64,000 nt of DNA from Neckera pumila (taxonomy: Eukaryota > Streptophyta > Bryopsida > Hypnales > Neckeraceae), in assembly GCA_963969595.1 (NCBI GenBank), contig OZ018409.1, forward strand, positions 24,255,282 through 24,319,281, written 5' to 3'. A model generated the notes under the pieces. It saw only the letters and a program-made list of their open reading frames with translations. It ran no database searches and was not told where the DNA came from. Shown one piece after another: positions 5,290 through 64,000 of this stretch. Each line of letters begins with the position of its first letter. Position 1 is the stretch's first letter. The position numbers were made by a program, and so were the translations under genes.

Positions 5290-6358
5290 TTAATTCTTAA
5301 AGTTCCATGACTATGTTTTCACTGAAAATGCTCAAAAAATGCCATTTTGAATACAAGTATCCCATTTTTGAAAAAAAACTTTTTTTGATACATGCAACCA
5401 TAGGATCTTGTAGTATGTTGACTTGAGAACACGTGGTAAAAATTTCAGAAATTTCCACCGTGTGGATTGCAAGATATAAGCATTCAAATTTCTTGAAAAT
5501 CATTTTTCTGGCCCTGCAAAAAACAGGGCAGCTGCACTTCACAAGCTCACTTGATGAAAAAATGTCCAAAATGATGGTGCTTCTTTGGATTCTTTTTCCT
5601 AGACAAGTTAACTACATGCTTGAAAATTTTCACTTCATTTGGAATTGTCCAACATATAGGAAAAAAATAGTAAGTACATAGTAGAAGAGAATGATCCAAA
5701 ATACAAAATTGTCAAGAATTTAATTATAGAATTGAAACAATATTGCAACATTGAACATTGCAACATTGAAAAAAATTGCAATATTACAACATTACAACAT
5801 TGCAACATTGGAAAAAATAGTAAGTCAAAAGAAGTAGAGAATGATTCAAATTTATACTAAATTGTTAAGAATTTAGTTATGGAATTGAATGGTTGCAATG
5901 TTGTAATAAGCAAACTACATCCTATGATTTTATATTTTTCAGAAAATATTGAAAATTAAATAAGATAAAGGACTTCAAAGTTTATTTTAGAGTAGAGAAT
6001 CCATAACTGCCCGCACACTAAAAATCTTCATAACTTTTGATTCATTAATAAAAATGGGATGATTCAAAGCTTTCCACATATATATAACTCTAGAAAACCA
6101 ATTTCAAATTTTTGTTTTTGAAAAAAGTGATTTTTTCTGATCTGCCGGAATTGACCAGTTACAAAAAATAGTAACATATTGGGCCATTACTTTTGACTCA
6201 CATTTCCAAATGTCATGAAATTTATTGCATATAAAAGATATTCCTCTCTTCCACCTTCTATTAAAATTTCAACCTAAAATATGGAAATCTCTAGTCACAC
6301 GAACCTGCCCAAAATTTCTATACAGCCAAAAAACGCATCCCGATCTTTTAGGGGTTAA
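5290..6358 (+). mobile_element. TTAA-bounded TIR element, copy 1
   Basis: It ends with CTTTTAGGGGTTAA (TTAA at 6355-6358). Its left end TTAATTCTTAAAG is a degenerate form of TTAACCCCTAAAG (TTAA at 5290-5293). The interior is collinear with the copy at 45976-46908 over most of its length, including the blocks around GTGGTAAAAATTTCAGAAAT and ATAACTGCCCGCA. It carries an open frame of 82 codons (5433-5681) shared with other copies. Length is 1069 bp. It is read as a non-autonomous DNA transposon inserted at TTAA. Confidence 0.65.
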
Positions 6359-12931: not shown

Positions 12932-12962
12932 TACCTAAGGTAGCCAACCCATTTCCAACCAC

Positions 12963-14176
12963 TTAACTACTAAAATACCAAAGCATTTTTTGGCTCTGAA
13001 ACCACTCAAAACTGCAATGTTTGTTACGATCATTCAAGAAACCGAAAAACATTTTCTTAAAATCTTACATACGATCTTGTACTTCACTTATCTCAGATCA
13101 TGTGGTAAAAATTTCATAAAGTTTGATTGTTTGGATTGGAAGATATTAGCATTTGAAGTTGGAAAAATATGTTTTTTTGAATGCAAGCCTGCAATTTCAG
13201 ATGACTTTGATTGCCATTGTGGAATTTTTTTGCACTATGGACCATAAATTTAAACTTTTTTTTGTTGATCATTTGAATTGAAAGTGGGGGAAAAAAATTC
13301 AAAATATTGAAATTTGATTTAAAAAAAAATAAAAATAAAGTAGAAGCAAGTCTAAGATTGCACAAAATACTAAATTGTTAATAGCTCTAGGATGGAATTG
13401 AAAAATCATAATCCCATCAATGAGACTTTCTTGCAAAAAAACTTCGCACTATTAAAAAAAATTCAAAATTGAATTCAAAATTGCATTCTATAAGTTGTCT
13501 TTTGAAGAAGATGCATTAGAAGAGATTTGAGGCCTCCAAGAGCCCACGAGTTATCCTGCGTTCCCGCAGCATTCCTATGCTGTTGAACGCAAGAAAGCTG
13601 TTGCGTTGATGTGGTCGAGAGAGTGCCGGGTCATTTTCGGAAAATTAAATTAAAAAAATAAAGAAAAATGCCTGAAATGATATTTGGGAGAGAATTTATT
13701 TTTTTATTTTTTTATTTTTTGAAAAAAAATTCTGACAGCCCGTACCGGCTGTTTTCAGATCTGGCCAGATTGGGAAACGGGCCTGAAACGGCCCTCCAAT
13801 GCCCTCAAATCTCTTCTAATGTGTAGATTGCCCAAAAAACGAGATTGTCCATAATTTTCTCATTATTAGTCCAAATAGAATGAATTAAAGCTCCAAATGT
13901 AGACAAAAGCTTAATCTTTCATAAAAGATTTGAAAACTAAAAAAGTTCCTTTTTTTTGTGTTCTTTGGTTCTACCCGGCGAACTACTTTTAAGACTTCGG
14001 ATGGCATAACTTTTGCTCTCGGGCACCGATGGAAAAAAAATTATAGTCTTAGAACGCAAATATGATTCTTTGTCTTCAAAAAAATTTCCAAAAAATCAAG
14101 TCAAAATTTGAGGTCACACAAGCCTGCCCGAAATCCCAAGTGTCACTCGAGGGAACTTTGGTACTTTAGGGGTTAA
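12963..14176 (+). mobile_element. TTAA-bounded TIR element, copy 2, inserted in another element
   Basis: The left end is TTAACTACTAAAA and the right end ACTTTAGGGGTTAA; TTAA occurs at 12963-12966 and 14173-14176. The interior is a diverged relative of copies 5290-6358 and 42436-43456 (GGATTGGAAGATATTAGCAT near 13133; CACAAGCCTGCC near the right end). The host element's two paralogues show a single TTAA or TTTA at this point, so TTAA behaves as a 4-bp target duplication. A different MITE (13514-13821) is nested inside. Confidence 0.78.
13514..13821 (+). mobile_element. CATTAGAAGAG MITE, copy 1
   Basis: The inverted ends are CATTAGAAGAGATTTGAGG and CCTCAAATCTCTTCTAATG; 308 bp. The family has two more copies (43509-43795 in reverse, 50235-50517). 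Shared internal landmarks are GAGTTATCCTGCGTTCCCGC, a CCAGATTGGG-like block and an AT-rich centre. The target duplication is not clear and the superfamily is not assigned. Confidence 0.75.
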
Positions 14177-14830
14177 GCACTTACACATATCTGGAGTGCA
14201 ATATTTTTGAATGCAGAATTTTATTGTGTAAAGAAATAGGGTTTGGAAGGATTGCATATTTTTTCATAATTTTATTATACAAATGTAATTACTATGAATT
14301 TTTTAAAGGAAGATTCTCTGCGATCTATAATAGACCTTTCTATTTTTACCCATAGGTTGATTGTAAAATCGACCAAGGGCTGGTTGCAATATTAAGAGCC
14401 TTGTAGCCAATCATAATGTGCCACAACTGCTCTGGGAAACTGAGCCATAGCTTCACGGAAAGAAAGCAGCCTATAGATTGGAAATGGGGGTGATAAAAAA
14501 ATGGGTTGGCTATTATATGCAATGGTGAGAATTCCCCTAGTTGGATAGTGCCTCTTTTCTCCAACATAGTATGATCAAGTCAAACTATGTTGACCATGTT
14601 GTAAAGAGTAAAAAATTTCTTAGTTTTTAAATGCAAACAATATAATCTTGTAATCTACATGGTCAAATGGCTAAATTTTCTACAAATTCCTATTATAATT
14701 TGTATGGTTGAAAGAAAGCTTGAAAACGAATTTTGTATTTTGATTATGCTCAATGCACTAGACAATGCCATTTTTTGGATACTTTTTGTGAAAAATAGTG
14801 AAGGAGCTTCAGGGTTTAGGAACAACTTAT

Positions 14831-15893
14831 AGTATTCATTTTTTTTTCCCTGCCCGGTGAACTTCTTTTAAGACTTAGAATGGCATAACTTTTGCTCCCG
14901 TGCACCGATTGAAATAAAAATTATATGTGTAGAAAGCTACTGTGATTTCCTATCTTAAAAAAAAGTTTGTGGATTGAAAGATTATAATGTTTGACCATGA
15001 GGGTGTTAAAACTGCAAAAATCTTTCAATCTTCTTTACACAAGTCAAATCTAAAAAGTTGGTGACACAAAAAAATATGAGGTTAAAGGGCCTAACTTGTA
15101 TAATCCTGATCAATTTATAGCTTCTTAAAATCTACTCTACAATTTTTTTAAATGAATTTTAAATGTGATTTTTTCTCCAAGATCTAGTGTATTTAAGGCT
15201 CATTTCCAAGTGCTCTCAAAACTGTGGGAAGTCAAGATTGCAATGGGTATCCTTGTACAAAAACTTGAATAGAAAAATCACTATCATTTATTTTCAAGAT
15301 TGTATTTTTTTACGCTAAAATTAGCCTTTAAGAATAATTTTCTAAAAATATAAACTACTAAAAATAACAACTTCATTAGTTTTTATTTAACTTCAAAGTT
15401 TTGTAAACACCAGATTTGGGTGCCTTGGGCATTTAGGGATTAAGGCATGGGGAGCAGACCATGAAGTCGGTGTGGAAAACAAATAGACAGAAGGGAAGGC
15501 AAATGGGAGAGAGTGAGATGCAAAAAAAACTAACTCTAAAATATTATGAAATGGCTTCACAAATCTTGGTCAAAGTGCAAAGTTGAAAAGCACCTACTCC
15601 CAATTGTGAGCGGACCCATTTTCAACCACAAATTACAGAGATTCAACGGCCACAAAGCCACCTCATCGTTGTAGTTTGGACACTTGATGGGCAGATTGAG
15701 GGGCAATCACAGGGAACTGGTTTGTGGTCAGAAATGGGTGTGTTTACCTTAGTAGAAAGGTTGTGGTTAGGCTCGAGAGCAACAAAAAGCTTTGTCACCA
15801 CAATTTAAATTAGGTCAAAATTTGAGGTCCCACAAGCTTGCCTAAAATCCCAAGTGTCCCTCTCGGGAACTTTGGTCTTTTACAAGTTAAACG
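14831..15893 (+). mobile_element. Broken TTAA-family element interrupted by later insertions
   Basis: Segments 14831-14960 and 15808-15893 match the right part of the element at 12963-14176 (CCGGTGAACT, GCATAACTTTTGCTC, then TCAAAATTTGAGGTC and CCCAAGTGTCCCTC). Between them lie about 850 bp of other DNA, including the fragment ending at 15443. The terminal TTTAGGGGTTAA is degraded (TTTTACAAGTTAA). Confidence 0.5.
14970..15443 (-). mobile_element. TTAA-family fragment of the GCCCAAGGC subtype
   Basis: It matches, in inverted orientation, the left part of 38589-39427: GATTGAAAGATTATAATGTT at one end and GCCTTGGGCATTTAGGGATT at the other, with TTAA at 15440-15443. The other end is missing. Confidence 0.6.
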
Positions 15894-15918: not shown

Positions 15919-16528
15919 CTCCCTCCATCCCAGTAAAAACCTCCAAATTGGACATAATGCGTGTACCACTAAAACACTCCTTTTATTGATTTTGAATGTT
16001 GAACAAGCAATGTAGAATTCAAATCAATTTCCACTCAATCAATTCCAAAAAGTCCACATCACTTACTCAATGATCAAAATCAATAATTGAAATGGTTTGG
16101 TGGTGTTGTAGCTGGCCCATTTTTGATTCCCCCCCATTTCCAATCTACAAATTGCTCTCTTTCTATGAATTTGTGGCTTTGATTTCGGAGCAGTTGTGGT
16201 GCATTATGATTGGCTGCAAGGCTCTTGATATTGCAACCAATCCTTGATTGATTTTGCAATTAGCCTATGGTCAGAAATAGAAAGGTCTATATTACCATTA
16301 TAGGTTGAAGATAATCTTCCTCCAAAAATTCATAGTAATTATGTTCTGTGTGATAAAATTCTAGAAAAATATACAATCTTCCCAAATTCTATTTTTGTAC
16401 ATAGAAAATTCCGCACTCAAAAATATTGCACTCCAATAATTATGCAGATTTACTAAAGTAGTTGGAATGGGTCGGCTACCTGACATCCACTATGTCCAAT
16501 TCGAAGGTTTTTAGTGGGACGGAGGGAG
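15919..16528. mobile_element. Stowaway-like (Tc1/mariner) non-autonomous element
   Basis: The left end CTCCCTCCATCCCAGTAAAA and right end (as complement) CTCCCTCCGTCCCACTAAAA extend as an inverted repeat of about 38 bp. Both sides are flanked by TA. CTCCCTCC(G/A)TCCC with a TA target is the classic Stowaway end. At 610 bp it is long for a Stowaway, because another element (about 16109-16482) is nested inside. Confidence 0.88.
16109..16482 (-). mobile_element. TAAGGTA-type subfamily H element, copy 2 (inside the Stowaway)
   Basis: In inverted orientation this matches 14177-14535 and 39440-39800 (TTGGAGTGCAATATTTTTGA on the complement; GATTGGCTGCAAGGCTCTTG). The ends GTAGCTGGCCCATTT and GAATGGGTCGGCTACC are inverted. 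The terminal TAAGG is no longer readable. Confidence 0.65.
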
Positions 16529-17122
16529 TATTTATTGTACCCTTTGACCTACTCTTTGTTGGCAAGGTTGATTTTAAAGATTTTCTATAGAGAAAAGAGC
16601 CTCAATTCATGAAAGCAATGGCAAAGGGTCAAGAATGTTCTCATTATGCTGCACAGCAACTCCTGAACTTCATGAGCTTGGAATCCTTGCATTGTTGCAT
16701 TTGATGAGGGTGCGTAAGTATGACACCTGGTGGACAGGTGTCAAATCGGGGGGAATCACAATTGTGACGTCATAAGTTCATGAGGACATCACGTGAAGAC
16801 TGACGGAGGAAACAATTTTTTAGATTTATTTCAAAAAAACTGAAACAACTACAGTACAGCAGATGCTTGAATTATTCTTAAATCGACACGAAACAATTGC
16901 CAGCTGTCAATGAAAAGTGAAGAAATTGACATATTTCGTACCATTCACGAAGGTCTGATTGGGCACCCGAGTGCCAAAACTGAATTTCCACATCAGATTC
17001 TCAGGGTCCACGTCACCATAGACCATGCACAAAATGACATGTGGCATTTTTTGGGTAAAAAATTGACTTAATTTCAGTCGAATTTGACCTTCACATAGGG
17101 TAGTTGGATTTTCCAATCTTTA
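16529..17122. other. Intergenic DNA, no gene recognised
   Basis: It contains a short perfect dyad GACACCTG...CAGGTGTC near 16720-16742. A minus-strand frame of 69 codons at 16907-17116 has no recognised motif. Confidence 0.35.
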
Positions 17123-21027: not shown

Positions 21028-21790
21028 TTAACTCCTAAAGGTCGAAGACTATGTTTTCACCAAAAGCACTCCAAAACTGCCATTTCTAGTACAAATATCA
21101 AATTTAAAAAAAAACATTTTTGGATACATATAATCATAGGATCTTGTAGTAAATTTATTTGAGAGTATGTAGAAATAAATTCAGAATTTTCCACCTTGTA
21201 GATTGCAAGATAGTGGCATTTGAATTGACAAAAATCCTTTTTTTGGCCGTGCGGAAACCTAGGCAGCTGCACTTCATAAGGTCACATTTAAATGAAAATG
21301 TCCCAAATGGTGGTTACTCCTTGGATTCACTCTTCAAAGCAAGTTGAATACATGCTTGAAAAAATTTCAGATCATTTGAAATTACACAACATATAGGAAA
21401 AAAATAGGTGGTAGAAAGAAGTAGAGAATGATTCAAAACACAAAATTGTTAAGAATTTAACAATTTAATTTGATTATGGAATAAAAAAATGTCAATTCCA
21501 ATGGTTGCAATGTTGCAGTAAACAATATACATCCTATGCTTTTATTTTTTTCAAAAAATATTAAAAATAGAATTAAATAAAAGACTTCTAAGTTTATTTT
21601 AGAATAGGGAATCCATAACTGCCTGCAAATTAGAACACCTCATAATTTTATCTCATAAATCAAAATGGAATAATTCAAAGCTTCACGCATATATATAAAT
21701 CTAAAAAACCAATTTCAAATTTTTATTTTTTTAAAAGTAATTTTTCAGAAAAAAATTGAGTTGCCCGCCGATAGTTGAAAATGACATATC
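21028..21790 (+). mobile_element. TTAA-bounded element, copy 3 (right end lost)
   Basis: The left end is TTAACTCCTAAAGGTCGAAG. The interior matches 5290-6358 and 45976-46908 (CAAAACTGCCATTTCTAGTA, AGATTGCAAGATAGTGGCAT, ATCCATAACTGCC). The alignment ends near 21790, before any TTTAGGGGTTAA. A frame of 62 codons at 21159-21347 corresponds to the shared frame of the other copies. Confidence 0.65.
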
Positions 21791-21894
21791 ATCCAATGTC
21801 TTTTAACATGTTTTATTATGAGAGGCTTTAAAACTTGGAAAAACATTAGGAGTAGCCAAAAGTGAGTTTGGACATGAGCGGGTTGGAAAGGAAT

Positions 21895-25613: not shown

Positions 25614-27029
25614 CTGGTTTGCCAATTATTGAATGGCCATCGCATCTATTTCACATAGGAAGTATCCACATTTTTTTAAGGTGACAAACATATTCACCTA
25701 TTTTTAAGTGTCCAATTAGGCATGCAAGATTGAAAGAACTAGAATACTTAGAGGTTTATCATGCATTTTTAAGCTTTTATGATGGAAATAAAAGACTAGG
25801 GGATGCTTATGCAGAGTATTGGGCTTCAATGTCAACTACAAAACTAGGAACATTAGAAGTGTGCTACTATTTAGAGATCTTCTAGAAAAAACTATGGATT
25901 GATGTGAAACTTCTCTAAAGTCTTCAAGTATGGTATTCACGTATTTGGCTACATGCAAGGAAAATATGGTGTTCTCCTATGAGCCCCTACTCTCCACAAT
26001 CACAATTGTATTTTTAGTTGAATATGAATGCACATGTTGTAATTGTCCTTGCTCATACATGTCTAAACAAGACCAAATCCAAGACAAAATTGTACCATGC
26101 TAATCTGTGAGATGCCAATATAGATCATTTTACCACCAAGAGGTCGCAAATACTTTCTAGAGGTCACAAATTACCAAATTGACCAACCACAAAAAAAAAT
26201 TAAATTCCACTCCGAGGAATGCTAATTGGACTACAATATGTGCGTATATAATTGCTACAAGTCACAATTGAGCATAATTACAATAATTAAATATGAATGG
26301 TTTTTAATGGATCTTATTGGCAATGGAAATAAGATTCCAATGTAGTATAGTAGGCATTATTTGAACAATGTATGAATAAGTTAATTGTTTACACCTTTGT
26401 GTAATCAATATCTAACTTTTTGTGATGCCTTTTGGTACAATTAAATTAAGAGTTGCATTTGGGGCAGTTTTGATTATAGATGTAGAGTCGGAGACAAAAT
26501 GATCCATTCCTCATTGAGATGCTTCTCTACATAGTCAATACTTCATCAAATTTTACAAACTAATTACATAATCTGAAGGCTATGAAAGAGAGACAAAAGG
26601 TGTAAAATTTTGAGGCATATCAAACAAAAAGAAGTAATAGTAAAAAATTTAGAAATAATAAATTAAAATGATGGTTTGAAGTCTCTAAAATTGTTTTAAA
26701 TCCACCAATAATCTACAAGACTAATCCATTCTTAATCTACAAGACACTCACATGATTTGAGGCACTTTTAGGTTTACAAGAGCGGTCTAAAGCCAAAACA
26801 ATGTTGTTGGATATTGATGAATTTGATATCTTCTTTAAATATAAGAAATGCAAAATTGTGCTTGGCAAGGGTTAAAAGATGGTAGGGCAAGTCCCTACAG
26901 CTCCGATTTTAATACATTTTTTCTTCCTTTCTCAACTTTCAAAATATAAAGCCAACATTTTGATAATTTGTATCAATTTTTTTTGAATTGTAACCAGAGA
27001 TTACATAAAGAACCCCCCCCCAGCAATAT
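25614..27029. other. AT-rich DNA without recognisable gene
   Basis: No frame above 60 codons and no clear terminal repeats were found. Confidence 0.35.
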
Positions 27030-27512
27030 CACTTATGGATTGAAAGATTATAATGTTTGGTCATGAGGGTGTTAAAATTGCAAAAGTGATTTGAAGTCTT
27101 TTAATCCTCTTTTCACATGTCAAATCTAAAAAGTTGGTTACCAAAAAAATTTGAGGTTAAAGGGCCTAACATGCATAACCCCAATCAATTTATGGCTTCT
27201 CAAAAATCTATTCTACAAATTTTTTTAAATGAATTTCTAATGTAATTTTTTTCTACAAGTTCTAGCTCATTTCCAAGAGCCCTCAATACTACAGAAAGTC
27301 AAGATTACAATGGACATCCGCTTGCACAAAATCTTGAATGGAAAAATCATAATGATTCATTTTCAAAATCGGGTTTTTAATGCTAAAACTAGACTTCAAA
27401 GAGAAGTTTTCAAATATAAAAAACTACTAAAAATAGCAACTTGGTTAGGTTTCATTCAACTTCAAAGTATTGTCAACACTAAAATTTGGTGCCTCGGGCA
27501 TGTAGGAGTTAA
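27030..27512 (-). mobile_element. TTAA-family fragment of the GCCCAAGGC subtype, second
   Basis: It matches 14970-15443 over its whole length (GATTGAAAGATTATAATGTT, TCAAATCTAAAAAGTTGGT, ending GCCTCGGGCATGTAGGAGTT with TTAA at 27509-27512). It is truncated at the same place as that copy. Confidence 0.6.
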
Positions 27513-38588: not shown

Positions 38589-39427
38589 TTAACTCCTAAA
38601 TGCCCAAGGCACCCAAATATGGTGCCAAAGAAACTTTGAAGTTAAATTAAACCTTACTATTTTCTATTTTCAGCAATTTATATTTTTGAAAGATTCTTTT
38701 TTGAAGTCTGGTTTTAGCATCAAAAATCTGATTTTGATAATGAATGATTATGATTTTCCTATTCAAGATCTTGTGCAAAGGTACCCATTACAATCTTGAC
38801 TTTTTGTAGTGTTGAGGGCTCTTGGAAATGAGCCTCAAATACACTAGATCTTGGAAAAAAAATCACACTAGAAATTCATTTAAGAAAATTGTAGAGTAGA
38901 TTTTGAGAAGTCATAAATTGATTGGGGTTATATTTGTTAGGCCCTTTAACCTCATAGTTTTCTGGTCTTTAATTTTTTAGATTTGACATGCAAAAAAGAA
39001 AGCTCAAAGATTTTTATAGTTTTAACACATTGATGATCAAACATTATAATCTTTCAATCCTTTAATGATAATGTTGTGTTTTCTTTTCCTATGTGATCTC
39101 TAACATGTTTAGTTTGAATTTGTACGGTTACAATTTTAAAAGAAATTGATTCAACTTATCAAAATGTTGTCTTTTTGTTCAAGTTACATAACATTCATTA
39201 GCCTTCAAGGAGGCTGCCTTTCCATCCTTGAGGCCACATCCACAAAAACTCATCAATGTCAGCATGTAGTGTCATTTTTAGCTGACAAGTGTTCTTTAGC
39301 TAAATATGGTGTGGAATATTCCACACCATTTTGTCAGGGAAAAGGCAGTCTTGTAGTCTGCTCTGGAATGTTATGTTAGAGCAAATTTCAAGAGGTTCAA
39401 AATAGGCCTTGGGCATTTAGGGGTTAG
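38589..39427 (+). mobile_element. TTAA-bounded element, GCCCAAGGC subtype (full length)
   Basis: The left end TTAACTCCTAAATGCCCAAG (plus GC) and the right end, as complement CTAACCCCTAAATGCCCAAG (plus GC), form a 22-bp inverted repeat with two differences. Right-hand TTAA has become TTAG. Length is 839 bp. It is the only copy of its subtype with both ends; 14970-15443 and 27030-27512 are partial relatives. Confidence 0.75.
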
Positions 39428-40099
39428 AGGAGGCAACCCGTTTCCGATCAGTTAAGGAGTTACGCATGTCTGCAAGGCAGGTTTCTTCAGTTGGGAAATT
39501 TACTTGTGTGCAAAAATAGAGTTAGGAAGGTTTCCATAATTTTTCAGATTTTTATTTCTCAAAACGCATTTACTATGATTTTTTTAGTTGAAGATTCTAT
39601 TCGACCCATTCTTGTCATATAGACTTTCCTATTTCCAACCATGGGCTGGTTGTAAAACCCACCAAGGGTTGGTTGCAATATTGAGAATCTTGTAGCCAAT
39701 CCAAATCCGCCACAATTGCACCAGAAACCACGCCATAATGAATAACTGCTCATCTGTTCCTTCACGGAAAGAGAGTGGACTATATAGCCAGAATGGGAGA
39801 GTAAGGTAACTACACCTAAAATCACACTGTCCTTAAAAGTGCACAACAGATATTCTTGCCTAAAATGTACTCCTACTGTTCATATGACTCTATGATTGCT
39901 TTTAGGTGCACCTATTTTCAACACTTTGAAAATTCGTAGTTTATTCATAGAATGTCCAAAAAATGCATTCTAAGAGAATCTAAAACCCTGTTTTGACTAC
40001 AATGGGACCCCACAATTTATTTTTCAATATAATAGTGAAAACCATGCTTAACTGTACGATTTAAGGTGCAGTTACCTTAGTCGGGAATGGGTTGCCTCC
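39424..40099 (+). mobile_element. TAAGGTA-type subfamily H element, copy 3
   Basis: The left end TTAGAGGAGGCAACCCG and right end GGGTTGCCTCCCCTAAG are inverted. The body is collinear with 14177-14535. It keeps one uninterrupted TTAA at 39442-39445 where copy 1 carries the 12963-14176 insertion, and is itself interrupted by 39802-40079. Confidence 0.75.
39802..40079. mobile_element. TAAGGTA-type MITE (subfamily A, copy 2)
   Basis: The ends TAAGGTAACTACACCT and AGGTGCAGTTACCTTA are identical to those at 8217-8513. It is inserted near the right end of the subfamily H element; the paralogous uninterrupted site in copy 1 has a single TA there. Confidence 0.82.
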
Positions 40100-40858: not shown

Positions 40859-40900
40859 AAGTAAATCGATCTTTGGACTTGGATCATTCACAAGAAGAAC

Positions 40901-41035
40901 GGGGAGGCGTTACCCTCCCCGGTGTTTATTTCCACAATGAAGCTTCACCCCCCCCTTGACTTTCTTTAAACGGAAAGTCAAGGGGGGGTGAAGCTTCACT
41001 GTGAAATTAAATACCGGGGAGGGTAACGCCTCCCC
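40901..41035. repeat. Near-perfect hairpin with 64-nt arms
   Basis: The arms 40901-40964 and 40973-41035 are about 94 per cent complementary, with an 8-nt loop (TTTAAACG). Landmarks GGGGAGGCGTTACCCTCCCC and GAAGCTTCACCCCCCC are mirrored exactly or nearly so. Weaker symmetry continues out to ATTCAC (40885) and GTGAAT (41057). Confidence 0.85.
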
Positions 41036-41280
41036 ATTCTCCCTGTGATTGGTGAATCACACAAAGTTCATCTGTTTCTTGTTTTCTTGGAAGGAACAGG
41101 TTCGTCTTTGAGGGAGAAAACCTCGCCCACTCGTCAAATCTGCAGGCAAACTTGGTGGGACACCAGTATGGCCGGTATGGCCCAGCGGTTCAACAATACC
41201 CTTTCCTACTTCGTGTGTTTTTTAATGCAAATGGTCACCATCTCTTTGAAAGATCACCATCAATACCTTAAATCAGGCTG

Positions 41281-42435: not shown

Positions 42436-43456
42436 TTAACCCCTACAGATCTATGCCCATGTTTTCATCAAAAAACACTAAAAACTGCTATTTTTATTGA
42501 AAAGAGAAAAAAATGTTTTTAATTTTTTAATTTTTTCTATATCTAACCATAGGATCTTGCACTAACTATTATTAAAATTTGTCAAAGAAATTCAAAAACT
42601 TTGACTACATAGATTCTAAGATAATTGCATTTTAAGTGGAGAAATCAAGTTTTTTGGCACCTTGCTTGACTAGATTTTTTGGCTTTGAATCTTCTTAGCT
42701 TAAAATTTTTGCATTCCATTCATTGTAATTTTTTTAAATAGAAGTATGAGATTGAATAAAAATATAAAATTGTTAATAGCTCAAAGATGGAATTGAAACA
42801 CAATGATTCCAACAGTGAGATCGAGATTGTTCTAGCAAACAAATTCAAGCCTCATTAAAAAAAAATTCTATAATTTATTTCTTCAAAAAGATGCTTAGAT
42901 TGCATGAAAAAGAAGATTGTTTATCTTTCTCATCACTAGACTAAATAGAATGAATTAAAGCTTCACATGTAGACAAAAGTGTAATCTTTGAAAAAAATTA
43001 AAATTAAAATTAAAATGCTTATTTTGTGATTTTTTCTATTGCCTCTCAAATTCCATTTGGACTTAGGACAACATAATTTTTGTTTCTAGTTACCAATTGA
43101 AGTTAAAATTATTTTCTCAAAGCTCATATGATTTCCTATCAAAAATTGAGGTCACGCAAGCCTATCCAAAATCCCAAGAGTCCGGCATCATAACATTATT
43201 AACGTTTGCTGGGAGGGTCTCTTTTGCTCCCCTAAAAATCGGGAGCCTTCCAGCTTATGCGACCAATGTCGTCTTCCAAAGCACAATATCTCTAACGCAT
43301 TATGGCTATTAGCTTTGCTTGACCAATAGTAATGACAATATTATAATTTAAGTCTCCTTCCAAGTCTTTTGGGGGGGGATTATACCTTCACCTGGGGGGA
43401 GGTACCAGACTTGGTTAATAATGTTACGATAGGGACTTTAGGACTTTAGGAGATAA
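42436..43456 (+). mobile_element. TTAA-bounded element, copy 4 (with a nested TIR insertion)
   Basis: The left end is TTAACCCCTACAGATCTATG and the right end CTTTAGGAGATAA (a worn CTTTAGGGGTTAA). The interior follows 12963-14176 (ACTAAATAGAATGAATTAAA, CACGCAAGCCTATCC, AATCCCAAGAGTC). A separate element occupies 43191-43426. Confidence 0.62.
43191..43426. mobile_element. Short TIR element nested in copy 4
   Basis: TAACATTATTAAC (43191-43203) is exactly mirrored by GTTAATAATGTTA (43414-43426), with further weak symmetry (GCTGGGAGGGT / CCTGGGGGGAGG). Length is 236 bp. The superfamily is unassigned. Confidence 0.55.
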
Positions 43457-43508: not shown

Positions 43509-43795
43509 CATTAGAGGAGATTTGAAGGCATTAGAGGGCCGTTTCAGGTCCGTTCCCAATGTTGTCCCGATTTTGTGAACAGCTGATATGGGCTGTTAGA
43601 ATTTTCTTTTTCAAATAAAAAAAAAAAAAAAAAAAAATGCCCAAAATATCATTCTAAGCAAAAAAAAATCGGAAATGACATGGCACTCCCTCGACCACGT
43701 CAGCCCAGTAGCTTTTTTGCGTTCCATAGCGTGGGAACGCTGCGGGAACGCAGGATAACTCACGGGCTCTTGGAGAACTCAAATCTCTTCTAATG
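43509..43795 (-). mobile_element. CATTAGAAGAG MITE, copy 2 (reverse)
   Basis: It is inverted relative to 13514-13821: GGCATTAGAGGGCCGTTTCA, then GCGGGAACGCAGGATAACTC and CTCTTCTAATG. It sits 52 bp right of the TTAA element 42436-43456. Confidence 0.78.
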
Positions 43796-45975: not shown

Positions 45976-46908
45976 TTAACCCCTAAAGTTCCTTGACTAT
46001 GTTCTCACCAAAAATGCTCCAAAATTGCTATTTCTAGCACAAGTACCAAATTTTTGAAAAAATATCATTTTTGGACACATAAAATCGTAGGATCTTTTAG
46101 TACTCTGGTTTGGGAATGTGTGGAAAAAATTTCAGAAATTTCCATTGTGTAGATTGGAAGATATTAGCATTTGAAGTGGCAAAAGTCCATTTTTTGGCCC
46201 TGCAAAAAACTGGACAGGTGCACTTCACAAGGTCAAATTATTATGAAAAAAATTCTAAAATGCTTGTACTTCTTTGGATTCATTCTTCAAAGCAAGTTGT
46301 CTACATGCTTAAAAATTTTCAGATTATTTGCAATTGTACAACATATAGGAAAAAAATAGTAAATAGAAAGAAGTAGAAATTGGTTCAAAACACTAAATTG
46401 TTAATAAGTTAATTATGGAATTGAAAAATGCCAATTCCAATGGTTGCAATGTTGTAATAAACAATCTACATCCTACAATTTTATTTTATTTTTAAAATAT
46501 TGAAAATTGAGTGAAATAAACAACTTCAAAGTTTGTTTTAGAGTAGACAATCCGTAACTGCCCGCAAACTAAAAATCCTTGTAACGTTTGACTCATTGAT
46601 CAAAATGGAATGATTCAAAGCTTTCCATGTGTATATAAACCCTAAACCAATTTCAAATTTTTATTTTTGAAAAAAGTGATTTTTCCTAATTTGCCCAAAC
46701 TGCCCGGTTACAAAAAAAAAGTAATATATTAGGCCATAACTTTTGACTTGTATTTCCAAATGTCATGAAAGCTAGTGCATATGAAAGATATTCCTTGTCT
46801 CCACCTTCTATAAAAAATTCAGCCCAAAATATGCAAATTTCTAGTCACACGTACTTGCCCAAAATTTCTATGTTGCCAAAAAATGCATGTTAGTCCTTTA
46901 GGGGTTAA
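45976..46908 (+). mobile_element. TTAA-bounded element, copy 5 (best preserved)
   Basis: The ends are a perfect inverted pair, TTAACCCCTAAAG and CTTTAGGGGTTAA (45976-45988, 46896-46908); 933 bp. The interior is collinear with 5290-6358. No direct repeat other than TTAA flanks it. It carries an 88-codon frame (46110-46376) shared with other copies. It contains no transposase and is therefore non-autonomous. Confidence 0.78.
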
Positions 46909-50234: not shown

Positions 50235-50517
50235 CATTAGGAGATTGTGAGTTCCCGGAGAGTTCCCTATGTTTCTAAACTATGGTCCAAATGCAGCTGC
50301 AGCAGTTGGCAAATGTGGCACGGACTATGCCACATCATTTTTGAAAAAAAATAAAAACTTTTTTTTGCTTATAATGATATTTGGAAAAATAAAACTAAAA
50401 AAAAATTAAAAAAATTAAAATTAAATTATGACAAATTGTACTGTTGTTCACAGAATCTGGTCAGATTGGGGAACGAGCTTAAAAAGGGCTTCTAATGCCC
50501 CCAAATGTCATCTAATG
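50235..50517 (+). mobile_element. CATTAGAAGAG MITE, copy 3 (diverged)
   Basis: The left end CATTAGGAGATTGTGAGTTC and right end AAATGTCATCTAATG match the family. Internal landmarks are GTGGCACGGACTATGCC and GGTCAGATTGGGGAACGAGC. Confidence 0.65.
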
Positions 50518-51935
50518 TTTTCACAGATGGCTTCTAATACATGTCTAAAATTTAATCTCATTTTTTCATAATTAAACACATCAAATTGAATTTTATATGA
50601 ATTTAAAAAAAAAATCTTTATAAAAATTATAATAAGATATATTTTTTTGCAAAATTGTTGGTACCATTTTAATGGATGACATCTTGAAAGTCTGAAAATC
50701 CTAAAAATTACAAAATGCTTAAATAGAAGGAATTTTAAAGAAAAATAGAAATAATAGTGACAAACATCATGGTGTAATTGATGTTGTCTTTCAACTCACA
50801 CCTAGAGAAGTTCAATAGAAAAAGTTCAAAAATGGTGTATTTTGAATTTTCAAAATGCTATCTCCAAAGTGTCACAAACTTTACAATTTGAAAAAATTGA
50901 AAAAACTCAAATGGAATAAAAAGTAGATTATTGAAGCTACATTTTCTTAGTTAAGCTTGAAAACATTTCAAATTAAGAAATATGTGAAAATGCAGATTTT
51001 GACTTTCAAAATGCCCATAGGGCTTGTAATGTCTTTTGAAGGTTAAAGGTGTTTTCAAGCTATGGATCCGCTCCAAAATGCAATCATAAATTGACAATTT
51101 TGCAAAATTTTGAACTTAAGGATTTCCTTCTATTTTTTGGATTTGCATTTTCTCAAGCCTTCATTAAAAAGATATGTATATATTAGTATTTTATTTCCCA
51201 AGATAGTTTGGACATCCTATTTTTGGAATTTCATATCCAAACTAATGCATTTAAAACATGTCACACGCACTACAATTTTTTTTGGGAAAAAATGACTGCC
51301 AAAAAGTTTTGGACATAAACGGCTGCAAAATGACTCAAGGTCCTGGAGTCATTGTGGTCAAGTTGTTTAGCTAAACAACTACAGTTTTATCATCACCATC
51401 CGTTTCTACCTTAGAGTAAGAGAAAAGAAAAGAAAAAAAGAGAAAAGAAAAGAAAAAAAGAGAAAAGAAATGGGTGAAGTGATGAAGAAAGTTGGGCTTA
51501 AACAAAAGTCTTTAGAGCTACCATATGGAAAGCGAGACCCTTGAAACATTTGACGTGGACATCCACATGGCCAGTCATTCTTTAGTCATTCTGAAGTTAT
51601 GACTGACCTATGATGAATCTGACGTGGATGGCCACGTAGGAAGTCGTTCCTGAGTCCTTGAAAAGTCATTTTGTATTTGCTGAGGAGTGAAACTTGTTTA
51701 TGGTTTAGGTGACCTTGCCGCTGACGTCTCTAGTCATTTTGAATGGAAATGTGGGGTTCATTATTTGAGGAGTAGGCACTATGAAGTCGCATATCAATAC
51801 ATTCAAAATTTCACAACAATATACCATACACAATATGCCATACATCATATACCATGTATGATACACCATATACAATACACCATACATTGTAGTTGGCACA
51901 TGTGTCACATGGCTTTCAAAGCCACTTAGTGTATG
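50518..51935. other. AT-rich DNA with simple repeats
   Basis: A ~20-bp AGAGAAAAGAAAAGAAAAAA unit is repeated at 51417-51468. An ATACACCATATACA-type degenerate repeat lies at 51823-51892. No gene is seen. Confidence 0.5.
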
Positions 51936-52123: not shown

Positions 52124-52207
52124 TTACTTAAGAACTTACTTAAAAGACGTTACTTAAAAGACGTGATGTCTAGGACACTACTTAAAACACCCCTTTCTCT
52201 TGTAGTG
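52124..52207 (+). mobile_element. Half copy of the CACTACAAGAGAA palindromic element
   Basis: TTACTTAAAAGACGTGATGT through CACCCCTTTCTCTTGTAGTG is identical in order to the right half of 58119-58281. The left half is missing. Confidence 0.75.
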
Positions 52208-52600
52208 AATATTTCAAGAGGTCTAACCTCCCCAAATTAATTTCCAGCGGACTAGGACAAAGATGGAGCAGATGATTTGGGAGGTCACAGTGATCATAAA
52301 CGGACAATGTGGTACAAAACTTCTCTGTTGCTTGATAGATTTCTAAAGAAGTCCAACAAATTTCTTTGCAAGTTTGATAACATTTGGCTTAGGACCCCAT
52401 TTTTGGCTCTTGCCAAGGTAGAGCCATCACATGGCATTTTAGGAAACCCACTTGTGGGTCCTTTATGTAAAAATGTATTTTATTGAGTTGTTGAGATGTA
52501 CTTTGGTTGCTTTCTCCAGGGTGAGCCCTTGGCTTTCTGCTGTTTGTTCTCAGTAATTTTTTGGAATAAACTCTAGGTTTAAAAAAAAAATTATTAACAC
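52208..52600 (+). other. Possible truncated retroposon with A-tail
   Basis: It ends in a run of ten A residues (52581-52590) after TGGAATAAACTCTAGGTTT. No protein motif is seen and the left border is unknown. Confidence 0.3.
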
Positions 52601-54979: not shown

Positions 54980-55872
54980 TGCCCTATACTAAAGGCCCAT
55001 TGTTTTTTTGTGGGACAAATGAAATTTTGGGCAGGTACCTACGGGCTGCATTTTTGTCTTTATTTTTTGAAACTTTTTTTGAAGATAGAAAAAATTATTA
55101 GCTTCATAGGAATATTACTATTTTTTCAATCGGTGCCCGAGAAGAAAAGTTATGTCAAAATAAGCTCAAAACAATGGAGAGGGGGCAACAAAAAAAAAAT
55201 TTCAAAGATTTTCTTATAGATTTTATTTTTTGTCTACTTAGAAAGCTTTGTTTCATTCCATTTGGATTTGTTATGAGAAAGTTATGGACAATCTCGTTTT
55301 TAGGGCAATTAGAGCATCTTCTTGAAAAAACAACTTGTAGGATCATTTCTAAATGCAACTCTTACAATTTTTCTTAAAAAAAGCTCTACATGGTTTAGTT
55401 TTTTTGCTATAACAATCTCACCATTGGTATTCGTGCATTTTAATTCAATTTTAGAGATATAAATCATTTAGATTTTCCTTCTATCTCGTTCCTACTTCTA
55501 CTTAACAATTTTTTAAAGTATGAAAAAAAAATTTGAATTATTTTTTCTAGACTCTCAACTCAATTCTCTTCCATAAACATTAAAAGCTCAAAACTTTGGA
55601 GTCCAAAAAATTATAGTTAAGAAAGTTCAAAGTCAAATAATCTAGCCCTGACATGTGCTGAATTTTATTTATTTTTCACTTTAAACACAAATATCTTTCA
55701 ATTTGTGTTGTCAAAAATCCTAATTTTTTTTCCACACATTCTTATACTAGTTAGGTGTACAATCCTATGGTTAGATGTAGAAAAAAAAATTTAGTTTTTT
55801 AACTCTTTGCTAGAGAAGTGGCAGTTTTGAGCGTTCTTTGGCAGAAAATAGGCCTTGGGCCTTTGGGGTTAA
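54980..55872 (-). mobile_element. TTAA-family element in reverse orientation
   Basis: The right side reads TAACCATAGG-like sequence in complement, then GGCCTTGGGCCTTTGGGGTT with TTAA at 55869-55872. The left side (TACTAAAGGCCC, TTTTGGGCAGG, CGGTGCCCGAGAAGAAAAGT) is the complement of the right part of 12963-14176. The left TTAA is no longer readable. Confidence 0.55.
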
Positions 55873-57781: not shown

Positions 57782-58293
57782 TAAAGTAACCACACCTAAG
57801 ATCGACCACTCCTAAAAAACTAACCCATATTCTTGAAGGGAAACTAAACAAGGAGGATATCCAAAATGGTGAGCTTGAAAAGACAAGTTTAAGGTGGTCA
57901 AAATAAATCTTGGCATCACCTACTATACATGACACTTTCAGCTTCCTACACTTTGCATCTTTGAAAGTTTGTAACTAATTCCCAATGCTTCCAAAAATGA
58001 CGGAACCACTTGAATTTTGATTCCTAATCCTTCACCGATGTGCAAAAATAGTTGTTCATTTTCTAAAGCATATCATTTATGCCAAAGAGCTTATTCATGT
58101 GATTTTAGGTGAAGTTACCACTACAAGAGAATGGGGTGTTTTAAGTAGTGTCCTAGACATCACGTCTTTTAAGTAAGTTTTTAAGTAAAAATTTACTAAA
58201 AAGACAATCTTTTTAGTAAAATTTTACTTAAAAGACGTGATGTCTAGGACACTACTTAAAACACCCCTTTCTCTTGTAGTGTATGTTACCTTA
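57782..58293. mobile_element. TAAGGTA-type MITE (subfamily A, copy 3), interrupted
   Basis: It begins TAAAGTAACCACACCTAAG and ends TTAGGTGAAGTTAC ... GTTACCTTA. It is split near its right end by the palindromic element 58119-58281. The Harbinger element begins three bases beyond it. Confidence 0.7.
58119..58281. mobile_element. CACTACAAGAGAA palindromic MITE
   Basis: It is a 163-bp element with nearly full-length inverted symmetry: CACTACAAGAGAATGGGGTG ... CACCCCTTTCTCTTGTAGTG and TGTCCTAGACATCACGTCTT mirrored. Flanks GAAGTTAC and TATGTTAC suggest an imperfect duplication. The end sequence is CACTA-like, but the flank length would not suit CACTA (3 bp), so the class is open. Confidence 0.75.
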
Positions 58294-58741
58294 TAAGGGC
58301 CGCTTTACACCAAGAGGCTGGGCCAATTCATTGTGTAAGAGGCCTGAAATCCTCACTTGTGATTGGCTAATTGGCTGAAATTGGTCTGAACCCCTTTACA
58401 CCAAGAAGGCTGGCCAATTTGGTCAAATGGATTTTTTAATCAAAAAACGTATGTTCTGACATGGCCCGAGCTTGCTGAATTGGTGCACCCAAAATAGAGG
58501 GCCAATTCGTGGCCTCGGGGCCGATGTCAGATTTCAATTAAAAAACCTTTTTTATAAAATATAAGTTTTTTCAACAAACCAGATCTGTTAGATTGTCTGG
58601 AAATCTGAACGGCTCTTTTGGTCCCATCATCACTTCATCCTCTCCTCTCTTCTCTTTGTCTCTCTCTTTTCTCCTTGTAGAACATCTCTTACTGAATTTT
58701 TTTGCGCTTGTCAATTTGTTGCTACCGTTTCTAGAGATAGC

Positions 58742-60736
58742 ATGGAGGGGTCCTTAGAGATGAGTGGATGGAATTCTAGGGAAGGATACATGGCGATGCA
58801 AAGGTATCAAAGTGCTCAAGCTCATGCTTTTCAACCCTTCCAAACCTCTTTACAAGAACATGTAGGTAGTATAGGGGTTCCTGTATTTTTCCAATTGCCT
58901 CTTGGAACTCCTATTCCTCCACCGCCACCGTTGATTCTCGGCATTCTTGGAAGTCAGTCAAAGAGAAAGGCTACCGAAGAGATTGAAGAGAAAGAAGTAC
59001 AGATTATAGCTCCACCGGCACCAAAGAAGAGAAGAGCCGTAGTTGCAAAGAAGCCTCGCAAACAGAATGTGAAGAAAGAAAAGGTGGAGGAAGAAGAAGA
59101 CCTTGGCTTAAAGAATTGGAAGGACCATGACGTGGAGACTATGATTTTGCTGCGTGGTGAGATGGAACTCAAATTTCTGAAGAACGCAAAGAAACAAGGT
59201 AATTTTTTTGCATATGTGAATTTATTGACAAAAAAAATCAGATTTCAAATTTGGCCAATTTGGTCTTTTAAAGGCCTTTGCCTTTGCCGCCTCGCCCCAA
59301 GCCTCCCCTTTCCCCCCAACGGCCTTCAAGACGACCATTGTGAGAGCAATTTGTGATGGAGCTAGTTTTTTTGATACAGTGGCCTGGGCAAGAAGGAGCC
59401 AAATAAGAATAAGAGCAAAACACAAAACACAAGCAAGCAACAACAGGTGGCACCCACAGGGTGCGGTGTTAGCCGCACCACGTGGGTGCGTGGTGGAGGG
59501 ATCAAACCCTAGCTCCATCAATTCTTCAATTGGAATGCACTGATTTGTGCGCACGAACCCAATTGGGGTCTATGCTGTCGTTTCGGTGTAATTCCATCTG
59601 AAGGGGAAGGACGCAATGAAGCTCCAGGTGCGGTCCGGTGCAACATGCTAACCAACTAAGGGCGGATCAAGGATCATTTGCGTCTGTGATTACTATTTGT
59701 TCTCAATTTGAGGAAGGGCGGAAGCACGTAGAGCGGAGGATTGCGTGGAGCCGGAACTGGTGGCGGCGGTCACCAATATGGGTAGGAATGAGCGTATCCA
59801 CCCCACCATCCCTTGGCCAGGGGAGGTTCTGCCAACCCAGAGCCGTTTTCATCTACCAACTTCTTCTTCAACCTCCTCTTCAACCTCCTCTTCAATCTCC
59901 TTCTTCACCAAAGAGATTGAAGAGGAGGTTGAAGAAGGAGATTTTCCCCTTCAGATGGAATTACACCAAAACGACAGCATGGACCCCAATTGGATCCGCG
60001 CGCACAAATCAGTGCATTCCAATTGAAGAATTGATGGAGCTAGGGTTTGATCCCTCCACCTCGCGGGCGCAAGGAGAGAGTCTTTTTAGGAGACCTCCAA
60101 GTCTTCCTTCCTTCCCCCTTCATGTTCATTGTACCCAACATGGAGTTCTTATACAAGAACCATTGCTGGAATTCACAACTGATTCACTATTTAGAGGCCT
60201 AATCAAGCCCAAAACAACTTTTTTACTATGCTTTCAACCTATGCAAGTGATGTGCAAGTGTAGATACTTGGTTGAAGCTACATGCCCGTTTGATTGCGGT
60301 AATTCTTGGACTAAATTGAACTGCGGAGGCTTGCAAAAAGAAATTCAACAGTTTGTACAAGCTATACAAACAAGACAAGATGGCAAATAGAATTTTAGGA
60401 TCAGACCGCCACGCATGTAAGTTCTACGATTCTTTTTATCAATGGTGGCATCAGAATGGCATTGTAATGAAACATGTGACAACTTTTGCTAATGATTCAG
60501 TTAGTGCCGAAGATAGCACCACGGACATTGAGAAAGATCTACATTCAAAGGACATTGTTACTACGACTCCAAATTCAACAACCAAGGTAGACAAGAAGAA
60601 TTTTCAGGAGCAATGCTATGGAGTTTTCATACAGATGGCCAAAAATAGTTCAGTCATGGTTCAGAATTTTGAAAAAACCAATGCTTTACAAGAAAAGGTA
60701 GAACGACGAATGGATAGGCTTATAGACAAACTTTAG
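58742..60736 (+). pseudogene. Harbinger Myb/SANT-like (trihelix) protein, spliced, with frameshift
   Basis: Exon 1 is 58742-59198 (donor CAAG|GTAATT), 152 codons. It has a Pro/Gln-rich start, basic clusters (KKRRAVVAKKPRKQ) that would serve as nuclear signal, an acidic stretch, then the start of the SANT-like domain (NWKDHDVETMILLRGEME). The domain resumes about 1 kb later (CPFDCGNSWTKLN near 60283-60320; CKKKFNSLYKLYKQDKMA and FYDSFYQWWHQ from 60332) and the protein ends at 60736 in a helical tail. Between WTKLN and CKKKF the frame changes by one base, with no plausible intron (about 30 nt), so a small indel probably disrupts this copy. In this superfamily the partner protein helps the transposase bind TIRs and enter the nucleus. 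Confidence 0.72.
59490..60066. repeat. Inverted repeat inside the Harbinger intron
   Basis: The arms are about 59500-59612 and 59943-60057. They mirror each other closely (GGATCAAACCCTAGCTCCAT, ACTGATTTGTGCGC, CAATTGG, TGTCGTTT, GTGTAATTCCATCTGAAGGG). A smaller inner inverted repeat (CAACCTCCTCTTCAA... and its complement) lies at 59877-59936. This is probably a nested foldback that lengthened the intron. Confidence 0.75.
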
Positions 60737-60800: not shown

Positions 60801-62213
60801 TCAAATGTGCTTTCCAAAAGATTGAGCTAGTAATTCATGTGCTTGTGTAGCTTGTACAAGCATGCTTTTCATCCTAGCCTCCTTGTCCTTTTTTGTTTCT
60901 ACAATCTCTGCACTCTCATCTTCATCTTCTTCTATACCTTCAATATCATTTACCACGATTTCTTCAATGTCTTCAATTTGCACACTTCCTACTTCAACCT
61001 CGTCCATTTTCAGGTATCTTCTCATCTCTTTTGCTGCTTATGTTACTGCCATAAAAATATCTATATTCTCTAGCTGTCCTAGTTGACTTGTACTTTCCAT
61101 ATGCATGATTCTCTCTCCTTCCTTTGCCCATTCATCATCAAACTTGTCTCGGTGTATTATACACATATTGTGAAGGCAAATGCAGGTAGTTACCAGATTT
61201 GGTACATGTCGAAGAGGCATGTCAATTCTCTTCAATAGAATCCTCCACCTCCCTTTCAATATACCAAAGGCTCTCTCTATAGCCATTTTTGTTGATGATT
61301 GGATAAAAGTCCAATGTGCCTTTGCTCTAGGTAATCCATGTTTTTCACCTTTGAAAGGAGAATAGAACCATGGTCTCATTGGATAAGCTGCATCACCCAT
61401 AAGTTTGTAAGGTAATAGCTCACCTTTCATCACTCTCTTCCCAATATCTGAATTTTGGAACAAAGTCCAGTCATGACAACGCCTGGCCCATCCAAAATCG
61501 TAATCCCAGAATCTGCATTTGCTGTCCACTACACCTTGAAGTAGAGTTGAATAAAAACCTTTCCTACAATAATATGAAGTAGAATCTATAGGAGGAGCAA
61601 TGATAGGTATATGACTTCCATCAACCGCCCTAATCACATAAGGTAATCCCATGAGCTCTTCAAACTCGGCTGCTATTCTACTCAAAGTGGCTCCAGATTG
61701 TTTCTCAATCACTAATGGTTTTAAAAGCTTCTCAATTGCTGCACAAAACTCCCTAACAATGATAGATGCAGTACTTTCATGAATTCCATAAATTTTAGCA
61801 CAACCGTGTAATGAATTACCACTACTAAGTCTAATAAAAGAAAGAGCAACCCGGTTTCTAAGAGGAATGGATGCTCTATAATTTGTATCCTTACGACTCA
61901 ATGATGGAGATAAGACACCACACAAATAATCAAAAGTTTCAGGAACTAACCTTGTATGTTGCTTGAATAACTTAACTAAGTAGCATCCAAATAACTGTCT
62001 ATCCACAAAAAGAGTACTCCGGTGATACATCCAAATGCTCCATGTCCTCCTAGAAGCACCGCTTTCTGCAACCATCACAGCAAAAACCATTGCCATGCCA
62101 GCATAATGCTGATGCAACGCAAGTTTTTGCAAAATTGCAACAACTGCCATAACATGTTGCATGGCCATGAAGAACACAAGAGCCACTAACACCTTTTGTC
62201 TACGTTCATCCAT
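60801..62213 (-). CDS. PIF/Harbinger DDE transposase (in-frame stop before the C-terminal tail)
   Basis: ATG at 62213; 391 codons to a TAA at 61040-61038. The frame then continues without shift for about 78 more codons (AAKE, MRRYLKMDEV..., acidic tail, stop near 60801). Catalytic residues are present: D198 in RAVDGSHIP, D274 in MGDAAYP and E313 in MAIERAFGILKGRW; HD at 247-248 is also conserved. An HTH-like segment sits at about 120-160. The intact DDE triad and single-exon core fit the superfamily's cut-and-paste nuclease. The stop at codon 392 removes an acidic tail and could have arisen by one transition from CAA. Whether the core alone is active is unknown. Confidence 0.9.
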
Positions 62214-62234
62214 CTTTGTCCAAACAGTAATGAA

Positions 62235-62259
62235 AAGAGAGAGAGAGAGAGAGAGAGAG
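62235..62259 (+). repeat. (AG)n microsatellite upstream of the transposase
   Basis: A GA dinucleotide run lies about 22 bp upstream of the transposase ATG. Read on the coding strand it is a (CT)n tract, a common 5' UTR feature. Confidence 0.9.
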
Positions 62260-62454
62260 GGGCTGAAATTTGCTAGATTTATTGAATCGGCCTAGCTTCT
62301 TGGCCCCAAGACCTTTACATATGTAAAAATTGGCCCCATTATAATCTTATTATAATGAGAGTTGAGGCTGACCTCCAGCCCAAAACATGCTGAAATTTGA
62401 TGCAATCGACCTCAAAGGAAATTGGCTTGACCTCTTGGTGTAAAGCGGCCCTAA

Positions 62455-63799: not shown

Positions 63800-64000
63800 T
63801 TAACCCCTAAAGGTCAAAGACTATATTTTCACCAAAAACACTCCAAAACTGCCATTTCTAGTACAAGTACCAAATGTTAGAAAAAAAACATTTTTTGACA
63901 CATGTAGCCGTACGATCTTCTAGTCAACTTGTTTGAGAATATGCAGAAAAAATTTCAGAATTTTCCACCTTGTAGATTGCAAGATATTAGCATTTGAATT
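63800..64000 (+). mobile_element. TTAA-bounded element, copy 6 (runs off the window)
   Basis: The left end is TTAACCCCTAAAGGTCAAAG. The interior matches copies at 5290, 21028 and 45976 (CCAAAACTGCCATTTCTAGT, AGATTGCAAGATATTAGCAT). The right part lies beyond the window. Confidence 0.75.

Follow-up and report, generated by a model that had tools for sequence, protein, structure and literature searches.

At positions 12963-14176 of the sequence examined here, an older repeat is cut in two by an insertion with TTAA on both sides, and the locus raises the question of which class of transposon was responsible. The sequence is a window of 64,000 nucleotides (C2:24255282-24319281) in a genome of 339.5 Mb with a GC content of 36-37% (18 contigs, among them ten of 23.5-52.8 Mb and the smaller C11). 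The original prediction of a piggyBac-like non-autonomous family is borne out by TTAA at both borders, an empty site, ends common to the family, and a PF13843 gene contained in an element with those same ends. The insertion very probably belongs to the piggyBac superfamily as a non-autonomous (MITE-like) element, put in place by a piggyBac transposase resident in the host. Genes in the vicinity encode an NPH3-BTB protein, an LRR protein, a ZIP transporter and a receptor kinase whose nearest solved structure is BRI1; the NPH3 and receptor kinase genes, both of plant type, fit the predicted land-plant host.

The insertion and its target site

The whole element starts with TTAACTACTAAAATACCAAAG and ends with CTTTGGTACTTTAGGGGTTAA. 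Its clean CCCC end is the right one, which reads CTTTGGTACTTTAGGGG and is followed by TTAA at 14173-14176, so that in this copy the CCCCTAAAG-type ends described after TTAA are clean on the right and decayed on the left. The 17-base right terminus has three matches in the window at up to three mismatches (0.15 expected), located at both ends of the element and at 43436-43452.

When the element was searched against its own genome, 40 of 12,277 candidates were scored and gave 83 matches, and the printed matches stop near query position 551 and restart near 862. Members of this family, designated A, usually measure about 924 bp, to which the window copy adds a 310-bp nested insert. The latter is a repeat in its own right, with CATTAGAAGAGATTTGAG ends and relatives elsewhere in the window, separate from the piggyBac-type families. 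The longest stop-to-stop frame in the family A consensus comprises 91 codons. Family A thus has the properties of a MITE: it lacks coding capacity, is present in high copy number and has its ends in common with an autonomous element. Pairwise K2P divergence among the 21 copies behind the consensus ranges from 0.09 to 0.28 (median 0.22), and the family is therefore old. Just inside one end, family A carries the palindrome GTCCCC-CGA-GGGGAC, a form of which is also present at the 5' end of the autonomous element described below.

Table 1. Positions, strands and supporting evidence of the element, its target repeat and related copies in the window.
Feature	Position	Strand	Evidence or remarks
Probable piggyBac-type MITE, family A, TTAA to TTAA	12963..14176	+	40 loci; ends TTAACCCCTAAA..TTTAGGGGTTAA
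Left TTAA and terminal inverted repeat, decayed: CTACTAAAATACCAAAG	12963..12983	+	TTAA is 12963-12966
Right terminal inverted repeat CCCCTAAAGTACCAAAG and TTAA	14156..14176	-	Exact match to TTAACCCCTAAAG
Decayed 15-base subterminal palindrome; family consensus GTCCCCCGAGGGGAC	14142..14156	.	Sequence; function putative
Unrelated 310-bp nested insert, CATTAGAAGAGATTTGAG ends	13514..13823	+	Relatives 43509-43795 (inverted), 50415-50518
Left part of the older repeat cut by the element	12932..12962	+	Joined-flank alignment
Right part of the split repeat	14177..14535	+	Joined-flank alignment
Intact paralogue of the split repeat; single TTAA at the empty site	39428..39800	+	Joined-flank alignment
Second unsplit paralogue, TTTA at the site	16109..16482	-	Joined-flank alignment
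Family B, 933 bp, exact TTAACCCCTAAAG at both ends	45976..46908	+	
Family B/E copy, 1069 bp	5290..6358	+	
Family E/B copy, right end not recognised	21028..21804	+	
A-related copy, right end lost	42436..43183	+	
A-related copy	54989..55872	-	
Family C copy, ends TTAACTCCTAAATGCCCAAGGC / CTAACCCCTAAATGCCCAAGGC, adjoins the empty-site repeat	38589..39427	+	
Partial copy of family C, covering C positions 1-476	14967..15443	-	
Partial copy of family C, covering C positions 1-585	26948..27512	-	
Family E copy, start; continues to window coordinate 65005 (in L049)	63800..64000	+	

The flanks of the element, joined with a single TTAA, align both to the paralogue at 39428 (..CAGTTAAGGAG..) and to the inverted paralogue. 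Both had been proposed as empty sites; each is indeed uninterrupted, and the first has the one TTAA expected, but the second reads TTTA at that place. The second paralogue is itself enclosed by the ends ctccctccatcccagtaaaa ... ttagtgggacggagggagta (~15920-16529), which we take to be Stowaway-like.

The predicted TTAA borders are present at both ends of the element and are kept across the family A copies fetched from the genome (40 loci, i.e., the window copy and 39 others). At the left end, each letter of TTAA is kept in 36-37 of the 38 scored rows, two of the 40 having been dropped; at the right end, which was placed in 37 loci, dropping 11 left 26 rows, and 25-26 of these retain each letter. 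These figures lean upward, since the 12-base motif by which poorly matching rows were dropped itself contains TTAA. Positions outside TTAA hold little information in these loci (at most 0.61 bits). A longer or different target duplication, which would have spoken against a piggyBac origin, was not found.

The same borders could be read as T-TA-[ACCCC..GGGGT]-TA-A, that is, as a Tc1/mariner element with ACCCC..GGGGT termini that duplicates only TA within TTAA targets, and by sequence alone this reading is inseparable from TTAA-[CCCC..GGGG]-TTAA. The outer T and A are, however, conserved as well as the inner TA (36-37 of 38 rows on the left, 25-26 of 26 on the right), and a full-length element bounded by these ends carries a piggyBac transposase gene, so that a Tc1/mariner origin appears extremely improbable.

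The joined-flank test was extended to 52 elements, which were queried against 264 kb of contiguous sequence and the fetched loci; 12 of them had paralogues spanning the junction, and the spanning paralogues printed were 66-86% alike. An ungapped TTAA was found at the junction for three of the 12, namely -31940 (14 of 42 paralogues), -34058 (3 of 15) and L045 (2 of 2). For another three (96316, -75251 and 147233) the TTAA lies beside an indel, the last being a weak test in that it abuts the end of another element. No TTAA was present at the junction in the spanning paralogues of the other six (-35153, 150417, L015, L022, L027 and L042), which may have inserted into copies that had gained TTAA by mutation. 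Taken with the window locus, the conserved borders and the junctions of the full-length copies described below, these observations show that the TTAA target is duplicated upon insertion, as in piggyBac.

Related families and other repeats

The contiguous 264 kb comprise the window together with L059-L068 on one side and L049-L058 on the other. At least six families with TTAACCCCTAAA-type ends were distinguished there: A (924 bp), B (933 bp), C (~643 bp), D (877 bp), E (1,206 bp) and F (2,471 bp). Their joint share of the 264 kb is 11.7%, and that of the window alone 12.0%, the interior of F being left out of both values; were this region typical, extrapolation would assign to them some 40 Mb, about a tenth of the genome. 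The two strands of the 264 kb carry 53 and 50 termini that start with TTAA and have up to three mismatches, whereas five first-order Markov controls gave 16-21 per strand. Genome-wide, the 19-base terminus pattern TTAACCCCTAAAGGNCCAA (one free base) has 8,825 exact matches and its reversed control none. The termini begin with a C-run, in the 5'-CC..GG-3' form stated for piggyBac (PMC10045372).

Pairs of termini lying 2-10 kb apart in the 264 kb were considered as autonomous copies and rejected. The long pair with two good ends, the family F member at 96316-98786, contains tandem repeats and lacks a long open frame; the remaining pairs look like chance or nested pairings. This 2.47-kb member (L052, window-relative coordinates) contains a 173-bp tandem repeat, copies of which are scattered through the 264 kb. 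A tblastn search of the 264 kb and the 40 family A loci yielded no transposase remnant (best E 6.3).

Several repeats of other kinds were observed in passing. An inverted repeat of 121 bases (59488-59608 / 59944-60064; 95% complementary, 335 bases apart) lies among the open frames of 58592-60390. Two tight hairpins, one at 58119-58190 / 58210-58281 (72-nt arms, 19-nt loop, 92%) with an inverted match at 52150-52216, the other at 40885-40954 / 40982-41051 (70-nt arms, 27-nt loop, 89%), are possible foldback elements or small-RNA sources. About 28 kb to the left of the window (L066, -29440 to -27768 in window-relative coordinates), reverse-transcriptase-like frames of LINE type were recognised by eye.

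An autonomous element with the same ends

A profile search of the genome with PF13843 (DDE_Tnp_1_7) gave at least 116 matches, scored from 872 candidates and all above the cut-off (best E 4.6e-80), and none in any of 14 control genomes. By hand count, 35 of the 116 have no stop inside the match. Around the best of them lies an autonomous element of 5.63 kb, C9:13927880-13933513, with an exact TTAACCCCTAAAG at both termini and TTAACCCCTAAAGTCCCA at both ends. Its left end, TTAACCCCTAAAGTCCCATTGTCCCTACGGGGGAC, starts at 13927880, and its right end, CCTTGGGACTTTAGGGGTTAA, finishes at 13933513. The element was read for the most part, in small pieces, with ~0.8 kb of the second exon outside the reads. 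The original prediction had called for an autonomous copy in which these ends flank a transposase of piggyBac type, and this element, together with the two near-identical copies described next, answers to that description.

A 700-bp query from the 5' end of the C9 element recovered two more full-length matches (99%) on C8 and C2, whose distance to their own transposase match equals that on C9 within one base. The three copies are 99-100% identical over the 700 bp compared, and all six of their ends bear TTAA, with different flanks. The C9 copy sits in family B sequence, where 4 of 11 spanning paralogues have TTAA exactly at the junction; the C2 copy sits in an AT-rich run of family A sequence, where TTAA is exact in 1 of 47 spanning paralogues and lies within two bases in 15 of the 47. 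No spanning paralogue was found in a search with the C8 site. The near identity of these copies at unrelated sites points to recent transposition. Exact matches to the terminus pattern, which misses variants, were absent within 15 kb of two transposase matches on C1, among the first 100 places listed. Three equal-scoring matches to the autonomous 5' end (92%, query 1-179), at C1:45861281, C1:45707592 and C1:41247325, are possibly a young non-autonomous family.

The ends of the C9 element resemble those of the MITEs. Its 3' end is 72% identical to positions 1-303 of family A, 69% to D and F and 69% to E over positions 1-206, and its 5' end is 71% identical to F (184 columns), 73% to A (98) and 68% to D (175). 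Inside the terminal inverted repeat, family A reads GACCAAGG versus TCCCAAGG in the C9 element. Given this difference and ends that are only ~72% alike, the C9 element itself need not be the mover of family A.

The gene predicted on C9 has a first exon of 12 amino acids and a second of 867 codons, separated by an 85-bp intron, for a product of ~879 aa; the frame is open over 894 codons with no stop. A piece of 491 aa matches PF13843 over profile positions 4-347 of 349 (E 1.1e-81) and, among solved structures, piggyBac (PDB 6x67; E 5.6e-36) and piggyBat (9c0f; E 2.7e-23). Aspartates 144, 235 and 353 of this piece align with the aspartates of 6x67 that are known as catalytic. Among 54 relatives of at least 380 aa, D occupies the first, second and third of these positions in 50, 52 and 42, respectively; 1, 1 and 12 of the 54 rows are gapped there, and the other rows have another residue. 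The protein has the three catalytic aspartates of piggyBac, at a spacing (91 and 118 residues) wider than that published for the animal clades. Toward the C-terminus, C451, C454, C468, C477, C482 and H487 are each the commonest residue, found in 19-21 of the ~19-23 relatives with a residue there, as counted from the top three residues per position; the protein thus has the cysteine-rich C-terminus of piggyBac, and no Pfam domain was reported in that part.

A fold model of the 366-aa domain is of moderate quality (mean pLDDT 72.2, pTM 0.66). In a fold search 6x67 came first (E 5.0e-20), and the three best hits were chains of 6x67 and 9c0f, followed by Tn5. Protein relatives numbered 180 at E <= 0.001 among 2,427 candidates, and the best 120 of these (P0001-P0120, of metagenome type) all have PF13843, at 42-72% identity to the C9 transposase.

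An element with the family's ends and a transposase of another class would have severed the link to piggyBac; the transposase of the C9 element is PF13843, as a piggyBac origin demands. This result also bears on PIF/Harbinger, for which a 3-bp TTA/TAA duplication would have to be assumed. A transposase of that type does lie in the window, encoded by a long open frame of 417 aa at 61038-62291 on the minus strand (DDE_Tnp_4, Plant_tran). The 3-bp reading would nevertheless make the ends asymmetric, the terminus scan shows no close pair of such ends flanking the Harbinger gene, and TTAA ends with a PF13843 partner were found in place of a 3-bp duplication with DDE_Tnp_4; we regard this origin as having a negligible probability.

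Kolobok and Sola3 also use TTAA. An element of one of these superfamilies might have been the mover, with the piggyBac gene of the C9, C8 and C2 copies as a passenger, and the ends were read for only three of the at least 116 transposase matches. Against this stand the single long gene in the parts of the C9 element that were read, which is of a TTAA-cutting class and retains its frame of 894 open codons, and the CC..GG termini, stated for piggyBac and IS1380 in the text available of PMC10045372. A Kolobok or Sola3 mover is accordingly very unlikely, and a piggyBac transposase remains the preferred agent.

Proposed mechanism and significance

In the proposed mechanism, the piggyBac transposase would recognise TTAA-CCCCTAAAG... 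ends, and the element would be cut out and joined into a TTAA, which is duplicated in the process. The MITEs would have kept both ends of the 5.6-kb element, its internal gene being replaced by non-coding DNA; the left end of family A would correspond to the autonomous 3' end, and the right end, with the palindrome, to the autonomous 5' end. Through these common ends the transposase could act on the MITEs in trans by cut-and-paste. A transposase of the C9 type or a close paralogue would have moved family A in this way, excision would probably be precise, and the system appears to have been active until recently. The subterminal palindrome might, as a guess, be part of an asymmetry in recognition.

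The C9 transposase and its element resemble piggyBac of Trichoplusia ni (PDB 6x67) in TTAA duplication, C-run ends, the DDD catalytic domain and the cysteine-rich C-terminus. In contrast, the two proteins are 26% identical in structural alignment, and the T. ni element is given as 2,472 bp (PMC10140906) versus 5.6 kb for the C9 element. The catalytic domain is likewise similar to that of piggyBat (E 2.7e-23), described as a bat transposon (PMC12732532), but identity in structural alignments is 21-23%. In the seven animal clades listed in the accessible text of PMC10813416, the aspartates are 78-85 and 98-113 residues apart; the values of 91 and 118 found here fall outside these ranges, which suggests a separate lineage. 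The Pokey MITEs of Daphnia, mPok1 and mPok2 (PMC4912750), also occur in groups, alongside elements of their own family that are putatively autonomous. Unlike them, the present MITEs inhabit a plant, fall into at least six size families and make up ~12% of the DNA examined.

The superfamily is known above all from animals. It was predicted to be seldom reported in land plants, and a 2025 account agrees: piggyBac is said there to be widespread in animals, fungi and protists, its occurrence in plants is called occasional, with red algae cited, and plant studies are described as limited (PMC12732532). PiggyBac is named among plant DNA superfamilies (PMC10794571), is said without detail to be found in plants (PMC10813416, PMC10140906) and accounts for 1,230 automatic annotations in a fern genome (PMC6890710), as far as the available text of these sources extends. 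A description of piggyBac MITEs from plants, including mosses and other land plants, was not found in the accessible literature, which consisted mostly of titles and the beginnings of abstracts and included few subscription journals; a search by the letters of the termini returned bacterial papers only. The kind of element is known, and the host and the scale are new.

It is likely that the genome harbours a piggyBac lineage native to a land plant, with a catalytic spacing distinct from that of the described animal clades, MITEs amounting to about a tenth of the 340-Mb genome, and near-identical, apparently intact autonomous copies. If so, this would be a natural plant piggyBac system, possibly still active. 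The presence in a land plant of at least 116 transposase-domain matches, and of MITEs in ~12% of the DNA examined, alters the picture of piggyBac in plants, and annotation of plant repeats that leaves out piggyBac might overlook much of a genome like this one. The finding opens the questions of whether plant piggyBac arose by vertical descent or by transfer and of how the host bears such an expansion, and it provides plant biologists with a native transposon that targets TTAA and is present in full-length copies.
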